The translations under genes were made by a program, and so were the position numbers. Positions 3,293-23,046 of a DNA stretch of 45,627 nt are shown piece after piece. The number at the start of each line of letters is the position of its first letter. Position 1 is the stretch's first letter. Source of the stretch: Haloparvum sedimenti (GTDB taxonomy: Archaea; Halobacteriota; Halobacteria; Halobacteriales; Haloferacaceae); assembly GCF_001462205.1 (NCBI RefSeq), contig NZ_LKIR01000142.1, forward strand, positions 69,966 through 115,592, written 5' to 3'. The notes under the pieces were generated by a model that was not told where the DNA came from, did no database searches, and saw nothing but the letters and a program-made list of their open reading frames with translations.

Positions 3293-3653
3293 CTGGACAG
3301 CACCGTCCAGAAAGCCCTAGCCGGCTCTTCCTACTACTGATTTGGGTCTGGTGGAGATCCTGCTGCTCTGGACAGCAACACCCAGAAAGCCCCAGCCGGC
3401 TCGACCGGCCGCGACACGCTCTGCGCTCCTCGCTCTCAGCACAACCCGCTGCGGTGCTTGAGGCGTCGGGGCCGGATCGAGCCGGCTGCCCCTTTCAGTC
3501 CCACCCCGTACCGCGACCGCACGGCAACCGCCCCCACCGCAACCGCTCCGCACAGCAGCCTCGTACCTCCCCAGCCTCGGCCGCGGACCGGCCGCGAAAC
3601 CGCAACGCAGGCGGCCGGCCCGCGACCTCCCTCGCGCGCGTTTCTCGCGCGCG
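3293..3653 (+). repeat. composite structured repeat element, copy A
   Basis: This fills most of the gap between serB and uvrA, which are convergent. In order it shows two degenerate copies of a CTGG...CCAG hairpin module (3293 and 3368, spacing 75 bp). Next is a long stem-loop H1 with arms 3394-3410 and 3470-3487. A C-rich linker follows, with the conserved block CCCCTTTCAGTCCCACCC near 3488. Stem H2 has arms 3583-3595 and 3611-3623 with one mismatch. Stem H3 is CGCGCGCG around a TTTCT loop (3633-3653). The same layout recurs as copy B near 22.5 kb. Short open frames exist on both strands but none looks like a gene. The rest of the gap (3654-3842) shows no further feature to me. Confidence 0.75.
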
Positions 3654-3842
3654 CCGACAGCACGGCACCGCTCCGCATCGGTCCCACACCGCACCGCTCC
3701 GGACGTTTTTCAGCGATCGGGCGCGACTCCCGCCGTGAGTGCAGTTCGATCGTCGCGTCCGCAGGCATCGCCTCGCGGGCCGTCGAGATGCGGGTTCTGT
3801 GGGGTTGGCTCGCGTTGGACTGACTCTCGGCGTGGAGCCCGA

Positions 3843-22383: not shown

Positions 22384-22512
22384 CGGTGTTCCACGGAGGT
22401 TCTCGGAGGATTGAGAAGGAGTGGTGACTGGTGCGGGCGGATCGTGAAGGTCGCGTCCGGTTCGAACGTCGCATTTGGCTCTCTGAGACACCCATTCCGG
22501 TACTGTTGCAGT

Positions 22513-22713
22513 TCCTGCTGATCTGGACAGCAACACCCAGAAAGCCCCAGCCGGCTCTCCCTGCGACGTTTTTTCTGAGTCTGCTGTCGATCCTGCTGAT
22601 CTGGACAGCAACACCCAGAAAGCCCCAGCCGGCTCTCCCTGCGACGTTTTTTCTGAGTCTGCTGTCGATCCTGCTGATCTGGACAGCAACACCCAGAAAG
22701 CCCCAGCCGGCTC
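22513..22713 (+). repeat. 78-bp tandem repeat, about 2.6 copies
   Basis: Identical units begin near 22513, 22592 and 22670; the third breaks off after GGCTC at 22713 and runs into the H1 stem. Each unit contains the hairpin motif CTGG-acagcaacac-CCAG, a GCCGGC palindrome and, in the two complete units, a run of six T. Both strands are open in several frames because the period is a multiple of three. No ribosome site or start codon pattern supports a gene. Confidence 0.85.
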
Positions 22714-22970
22714 GACCGGCCGCGGCACGCTCTGCGCGCTCGCGCCTCTCAGCAACGCCCGGCGCGAGTGCTTGAGGCGCCGGGGCCGGATCGAGCCGGC
22801 TGCCCCTTTCAGTCCCACCCACAGCCCCGCCCCGTACCGCAACCGCCCAGCTCCGCAACCGCACAGCAGCCTCACGCCTCCCCAGCCTCGCCGCAGCCGC
22901 GGTCGCGCGACCGCACCGTACCGCTGCGCGACCGCGGCTGCGGGCTCCCTCGCGCGCGTTTCTCGCGCGC
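22513..22970 (+). repeat. composite structured repeat element, copy B
   Basis: The layout is the same as in copy A: hairpin modules (here tandem), then H1 with arms starting AGCCGGCTCGACCGGCC near 22704 and GGCCGGATCGAGCCGGCT near 22784. The conserved block CCCCTTTCAGTCCCACCC and a CCGCAACCGC-rich linker follow. H2 is a perfect 18-bp inverted repeat (22891-22908 with 22926-22943). H3 is CGCGCGCG-TTTCT-CGCGCGC (22951-22970). It lies between the convergent EEP and DUF1028 genes. The remaining gap parts (22384-22512 and 22971-23046) show nothing else I can name. Confidence 0.75.
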
Positions 22971-23046
22971 CGACCGCACCGCCACGACCACTGACTGAAC
23001 GGACGGCCGTTGCCGAACGCTCGAAATTCGTGGCTTGCGATGACCA

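Follow-up and report, generated by a model that had tools for sequence, protein, structure and literature searches.

A dispersed, non-coding hairpin element of Haloparvum sedimenti and other Halobacteria

A 45,627-nt stretch of the Haloparvum sedimenti genome, hereafter called the window (contig NZ_LKIR01000142.1, positions 69,966 to 115,592, forward strand), holds two non-coding repeats of similar, composite layout. Are they parts of transcripts, structures of the host DNA, or elements that move? A first-pass annotation, made from the sequence alone, had described them as matching no known element class, and no such class was found in Rfam or in the literature. The repeats are members of a haloarchaea-wide family of scattered, non-coding structured elements. 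This family is previously undescribed, as neither an Rfam entry nor a paper on it was found in our searches, and judged by its sequence matches it is restricted to the class Halobacteria. It is thus a class-wide, high-copy element that had found no place in the collections searched, although it occupies about 1% of this genome. It appears to behave like a small non-autonomous mobile element that is acted on as a folded strand.

Layout of the two window copies

Both copies lie on the + strand and show the order of parts that had been claimed for them: first the 5' units (from one to three), which end in AACACCCAGAAAGCCC and the H1 5' arm, then H1 followed by the core CCCCTTTCAGTCCCACCC, next a C-rich linker and the block CCTCCCCAGCCTCG, and lastly the stems H2 and H3. 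Alignment of the copies in this genome placed the 5' boundary about 40 nt ahead of the first regular GAAAG unit, with unique DNA outside. The limits first proposed (3293-3653 and 22513-22970) enclosed real copies, but their 5' boundaries had to be moved, to about 3328 and 22483, and the 3' boundary was set just past H3.

In copy A, the regular element (5' unit through H3) spans 3328..3660 in the alignment of own-genome copies, and a degenerate extra 5' unit with GAAAGCCC is found 5' of it at 3310-3317. The 5' side of the hairpin frame, GAAAG followed by CCC (GAAAGCCC at 3385), occupies 3385..3392 and is invariant in all 23 seed sequences. It is followed by the hypervariable H1 5' arm CAGCCGGCTCGA (3393..3404). 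The H1 3' arm TCGAGCCGGCTG lies at 3477..3488 and runs into the 3' side of the frame (3489..3506), which is the core, composed of CCC, CTTTC and the tail AGTCCCACCC, and read as GGGTGGGACTGAAAGGGG on the G-strand. Downstream come the block of module B, CCTCCCCAGCCTCG (3566..3579), stem H2 (GCCGCGGACCGGCC ... GGCCGGCCCGCGAC, 3580..3626), and stem H3 (3631..3652), which forms the 3' end of the element.

Copy B spans 22483..22975. The modules flanked by CTGG and CCAG that had been noted upstream of H1 are present, but they are tandem copies of the unit formed by GAAAGCCC and the H1 5' arm. Copy B has three of them with a 78-nt period, at 22511..22547, 22589..22625 and 22667..22703, their GAAAGCCC starting at 22540, 22618 and 22696, respectively; the third bears the H1 frame (GAAAG at 22696-22700, CCC at 22701-22703). 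The H1 arms follow at 22704..22715 and 22791..22802, the core CCCCTTTCAGTCCCACCC at 22803..22820, the block CCTCCCCAGCCTCG at 22877..22890, H2 (CCGCAGCCGCGGTC ... GACCGCGGCTGCGG) at 22891..22943, and H3, again the 3' end, at 22949..22970.

Tandem units of GAAAGCCC and a 5' arm upstream of the hairpin were also noticed at loci L377, L385, L389 and L390 (genome G198), L393, L403 and L409 (genome G015), besides window positions 22511-22703. The period is 53-57 nt elsewhere, against 78 nt in the window, and only one 3' arm matches the units, with which any of several 5' arms could pair. A CRISPR-like array was rejected: the units follow one another in tandem, with a period of 53-57 or 78 nt, and the spacers are often near-copies of one another.

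The compensatory change reported inside H1, from CGAC/GTCG in copy A to CGGC/GCCG in copy B, is indeed seen. Folding of H1 as single-stranded DNA gave z = -6.6 for copy A and -6.1 for copy B relative to dinucleotide shuffles. When the window was compared with Rfam, a tRNA was the sole match above the curated threshold, and nothing credible was found for the element at E up to 5; a known RNA family was therefore discarded as a candidate.

Copy number, range and placement

The 18-nt core CCCCTTTCAGTCCCACCC occurs, with at most two mismatches, at 99 sites of the 3.24-Mb genome (49 forward and 50 reverse), while the reversed core pattern, used as a control, occurs at none. Together with the H1 z-scores, this shows that the window copies are not due to chance. 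A BLAST search with copy B as query listed 95 matches in the same genome. The median length of the element is about 409 nt, so that some 99 copies amount to roughly the 1% mentioned above.

The annotation had proposed a search for further copies in other haloarchaeal genomes, and rather than few, there are about 100 here and others class-wide; that the element disperses had escaped the annotation. The exact core is present in 23 of 60 relative genomes, and two other genera have about 60 copies each. With a covariance model built on the core hairpin, matches were obtained in 128 of 195 class genomes and 48 of 66 genera; these tallies are lower bounds, as the model finds only 21 of the 99 own-genome copies, an undercount that stems from the few first-look candidates scored. 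Depending on the genus, a genome may have no copy or as many as about 100. When 84,980 species genomes were scanned, all but one of the matches listed came from Halobacteria, including Haloarcula, Natrinema, Natronococcus, Haladaptatus and Halorussus. The single non-haloarchaeal exact core among the matches listed, in a contig of a Lachnospiraceae metagenome-assembled genome (L308, 2435-2452), is a matter of chance or contamination. The core was absent from 124 genomes of the phylum outside the class. The exact core was not found in any of 2.9 million viral contigs either, which argues against a virus origin.

Gene contexts, here and in other genomes, were taken from our own codon-model caller trained on acidic open reading frames, and are approximate. 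Both window copies lie between convergent genes, as annotated: a HAD/SerB-like gene and the UvrA gene around copy A, and EEP-family and DUF1028 genes around copy B. Among the 98 classified copies of this genome, 44 are in convergent gaps, 13 in divergent gaps, 25 have the same orientation as the neighbouring genes and 16 the opposite one. Convergent placement is strongly enriched relative to other gaps of at least 150 nt (44/98 versus 6/78; Fisher odds ratio 9.8, p = 3e-8). In contrast, 400-kb stretches of two other genomes exhibited no convergent bias. Placement between convergent genes therefore holds for both window copies and as a genome-wide bias, but it is a trait of this genome and not of the family. 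The mixed orientation and the lack of bias in the other genomes also weaken the idea of a strict 3'-end or terminator element.

Two loci revealed presence and absence at orthologous sites. The convergent EEP-DUF1028 gap measures 663 nt here, with copy B, and 3-85 nt in ten relatives, all element-free. At a second locus, in another genus, the element is present in four genomes, whereas ten have 26-33 nt instead. One of the four carries a tail-to-tail pair, two a single copy and one a hybrid; between two occupied genomes the homologous hairpin has opposite orientation, and hybrid arms are found. Such rearrangements are typical of extruded palindromes. The occupied genomes form no clear single clade, so that the loss of an ancestral copy is a possible history for the second locus. 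At the empty sites of both loci the flanks are too diverged for base-by-base placement of the junctions or recognition of a target duplication. The HAD-uvrA pair around copy A is not kept in synteny among relatives.

Tail-to-tail pairs 15-27 nt apart make up 15 cases among 80 loci. In these pairs (loci L245, L252, L256, L260, L271, L317, L321 and others), the middle between the two cores is often palindromic, and a four-way junction could form there.

A near-invariant frame around a covarying stem

Inspection of 23 aligned sequences revealed a frame, GAAAG-CCC on one side and CCC-CTTTC-AGTCCCACCC on the other, that is nearly invariant; written as GAAAG-CCC ... CCC-CTTTC-AG[T]CCCACCC, it varies at one base only. 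The 12-bp stem held within it is hypervariable yet paired: 96.9% of stem cells are paired, and in every one of the 12 pairs both sides have changed. The covariation score of the stem was 0.575, versus 0.129 +/- 0.019 after shuffling and at most 0.07 with slid partners. Covariation, whose absence the annotation had named as a sign against its proposal, is thus present, and the slid controls collapse. The compensatory evolution of the element is unusually clean, and offers a natural experiment on the evolution and maintenance of palindromes.

GAAAG and CTTTC form the closing pairs. Next to them is a 3x3 internal loop, which reads CCC/CCC on one strand and GGG/GGG on its complement. The tail AGTCCCACCC corresponds to GGGTGGGACT. 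When structures were sought by GAAAG, CTTTC and complementary arms, with no demand on loop or tail, 65 of the 66 had CCC/CCC as internal loop. The tail AGTCCCACCC was nearly always present, some of the loci having come from a model that included it. Within the tail, the lone A that separates the two C3 tracts varies most, being conserved in 49 of 59 sequences versus 56-59 of 59 at the tract positions. The H1 hairpin is mostly 112-139 nt long.

The second stem behaves in a similar way. The module B block was found in 96 of the 99 own-genome copies, and in 90 of these 96 H2 keeps at least 12 of 14 Watson-Crick pairs despite several distinct sets of arm sequences, versus 31 of 96 when arms were dealt at random. 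The proposal that a folded single strand is under selection, or is preserved by some mechanism, is strongly supported by H1 covariation and H2 pairing.

Is the folded strand RNA or DNA? Among H1 arms with at least 10 of 12 pairs, the stem, read on the C-strand, has 1707 Watson-Crick cells versus 40 A.C and 12 G.T. If the G-strand were the functional one, G.U would account for about 2% of the stem; a rough count of similar kind in haloarchaeal SRP RNA, limited to the 25 pairs of a partial RNAalifold structure, gave 174 G.U versus 519 Watson-Crick cells. So little G.U speaks for a hairpin of DNA, or for complementarity of the arms being maintained by a templated mechanism. Against the DNA reading, however, G.U exceeds A.C on the G-strand (36 versus 12 distinct events, a way of counting that only partly removes relatedness), which would also fit RNA. 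This asymmetry may point to the G-strand, either in the form of RNA or as single-stranded DNA that is exposed and mutates at C with a bias; a C-to-T bias on the single-stranded G-strand could be an alternative source of it.

On the G-strand, the hairpin reads GGGTGGGACTGAAAGGGG-stem-GGGGCTTTC, that is GGG-T-GGG-ACT-GAAAG-GGG-stem-GGG-CTTTC. Four G3 tracts lie on this one strand, and both GGGTGGG and the GGG/GGG loop are conserved. Two short duplexes, the GGG/GGG loop and the GGGTGGG strand could possibly make three tetrads in a quadruplex-duplex fold. The arrangement, a GGGTGGG strand and a GGG/GGG loop flanked by two duplexes, resembles known quadruplex-duplex hybrids, the fold being here a prediction. 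As the fourth G3 tract lies beyond a hairpin of about 100 nt, the usual quadruplex scanners would miss it. Haloarchaea contain molar intracellular potassium, and the element offers a test case for non-B DNA in such cells.

The element also led to a conserved non-coding region of about 580 nt, present in 161 haloarchaeal plasmid records, the left edge of which is a related hairpin. It lies directly upstream of the gene for an OB-fold, RPA-like protein. Representatives are found on a plasmid of Halobacterium sp. DL1 (L443:2440-3020) and in the H. sedimenti genome (G000:C103:106259-106752), and Halobacterium salinarum pNRC200 and PHS3 have a hairpin-less form; altogether 105 of 117 genomes of the class gave matches, H. 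sedimenti included. No credible match to the region was found in Rfam. In its predicted fold, G.U to A.C is 374:10 cells on the sense strand (36:10 distinct), versus 114:25 on the other strand (23:20 distinct), an excess that would be expected of a large structured RNA or a leader. At the head of the region, GAAAGCCC is present in 23 of 33 distinct copies, and most of these 23 have the variant tail CCCTTTCTGAGTCC, which lacks G3 tracts, so that a quadruplex is not needed there. The hairpin also forms a domain of a larger, probably functional unit.

Candidate explanations and known systems

The element has multiplied inside genomes, orthologous sites either have a copy or lack one, and one strand folds into an invariant frame around a stem of any pairing sequence. 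The explanation that we prefer, and whose chances we put at about even, is that the repeats belong to a non-autonomous DNA element that disperses in Halobacteria, its folded single strand being what is acted on. A trans-acting enzyme would recognise the frame of the folded strand when it is exposed in replication, and would copy or move the element; the stem would be needed solely as a structure. On the G-strand, GGG-T-GGG and the two GGG tracts on either side of the stem might close a quadruplex stacked between two duplexes and stabilised by potassium. Template switching in the extruded hairpin would help to keep the arms complementary, leaving intermediates nearly absent. The lineage of this genome has added module B, the C-rich linker and the repetition of the 5' units. 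A point against this explanation is the related hairpin of the plasmid region, whose long conservation at one place looks like function rather than parasitism. Further points against it are that no enzyme able to mobilise the element turned up, PF01797 transposases being undetected in four element-rich genomes, and that the own-genome copies lack terminal inverted repeats. To our knowledge, the archaeal single-strand mobile systems known so far are of the HUH/Y1 type, and if an enzyme acting in trans reads the folded strand, the element would belong to a further one. A more specific form of the proposal, which we regard as doubtful, is a novel type of mobile DNA, for which a quadruplex-duplex foot on the folded single strand would be the sole means of recognition, its stem being any self-complementary sequence and its machinery unlike HUH/Y1 and possibly linked to the RPA-like single-strand-binding protein of the plasmids.

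It is unlikely, in our estimate, that the element is a structured RNA domain, made as a small RNA or with the 3' or 5' untranslated region of a transcript, and functioning as RNA in protein binding, stability or termination. Strong stem covariation and the 36:12 ratio of G.U to A.C on the G-strand fit such a domain, as does the plasmid region, with a related hairpin at its head, its location just upstream of the RPA-like gene and its sense-strand G.U excess. Yet stem G.U is rare next to SRP RNA, orientation relative to neighbouring genes varies here and in two other genomes, and presence is lineage-specific; moreover, the C-rich strand is sense at the plasmid locus, whereas the asymmetry in dispersed copies favours the G-rich strand. 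Rather unlikely, too, is a host DNA structure, in which a cruciform or quadruplex, with an i-motif on the opposite strand, serves as a barrier or protein site, for instance by insulating convergent genes or stopping transcription between them. Absence of the element from the EEP-DUF1028 pair of close relatives, a copy number of 0 to about 100 between genera and the two genomes without convergent bias are hard to reconcile with that role. The strong convergent bias in this genome speaks for it, and so do the four G3 tracts facing C3 tracts, with the tract linker as the most variable of ten tail positions.

The palindromes might also be a mutational by-product, made and perfected by template switching during replication, with arms that covary free of selection and copies that spread by recombination. 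Few mismatch intermediates, hypervariable hairpins nested in loops as well, tandem duplication of 5' units and orientation flips are all consistent with this; we nevertheless hold it very unlikely, since it leaves the near-invariant frame, loop and tail and the class-wide spread unexplained. Membership in a described class mobilised by IS200/IS605, either PATE or REP/RAYT-like repeats, seems highly improbable. Dispersed palindromes with neither internal transposase nor terminal inverted repeats would suit it, and PATEs are common in haloarchaea (PMC3119063). However, PF01797, the IS200/IS605-type transposase, went undetected in four element-rich genomes (G015, G119, G109 and G188), so that mobilisation of REP/PATE type is not required; it has four matches in this genome and is present in several element-poor ones. 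The foot is GAAAG/CTTTC instead of the GTAG/CGTC tag of REPs (PMC3733652), and one frame is conserved class-wide, unlike the many unrelated families of PATEs.

The folded DNA element that we favour nevertheless shares traits with several known systems. Integron attC sites are recognised as folded single-stranded DNA, with short conserved foot boxes (GTTRRRY/RYYYAAC) and variable stem and tip. The present hairpin likewise combines a variable stem and tip with short conserved boxes at its foot, and it may be recognised as folded single-stranded DNA in the same manner. It differs in occurring as single dispersed copies without cassette arrays, and attC membership was dismissed, as the consensus frame has no GTTRRRY/RYYYAAC boxes at its foot. 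MITEs, too, are small, non-coding and dispersed, but the own-genome copies have no terminal inverted repeats, their ends (TTTCTGT... and ...GCGCGCGCC) being not complementary, which removes this class from consideration.

Haloarchaeal PATEs, or palindrome-associated transposable elements, are similarly dispersed, non-coding and palindromic, with strain- or species-specific insertions and no terminal inverted repeats (PMC3119063). Their palindromes are near-terminal and related to the ends of IS605-type transposons (PMC3119063), whereas the frame described here is an internal hairpin conserved class-wide; H3 lies close to the 3' end of the element, and the main palindrome is internal. Mobilisation by the IS200-type (Y1) transposase of the genome, as for PATEs, is at odds with the four element-rich genomes in which PF01797 was undetected. 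REP/BIME and REPIN sequences with their RAYT enzymes resemble the element in their roughly 100 copies, intergenic palindromes, mosaic or tail-to-tail pairs and non-autonomy (PMC2817692, PMC3116915, PMC3733652, PMC8266576). Their palindrome is 20-40 nt long with a GTAG/CGTC foot tag, in contrast to mostly 112-139 nt with GAAAG/CTTTC and CCC/CCC here, where the stem sequence is free to change under pairing. The family was not assigned to REP/RAYT, as foot tag and length differ and a RAYT-type Y1 enzyme was undetected in several element-rich genomes.

Minor variants were also seen around the hairpin. A nested insert of two hairpins, GTTCG..CGTGATGACG..CGAAC, sits in the loops of L041, L048 and L409 (G015:C1:946 kb), and its stems are likewise hypervariable and perfectly paired. 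Within the same frame, a second type of tip, GGTCGCTnnGCGACATATC...GATAGGGGTCG, occurs at L031, L040, L054 and in the G198 copies, versus the common CTCGCTGCGCTCCTC...TGCGGTGCTTGCGTCG. Immediately after the tail, G198 carries tandem repeats of about 24-29 nt (L377, L389, L390), for example CGGTGGAATGTGTCACCGGCCGATTCC.
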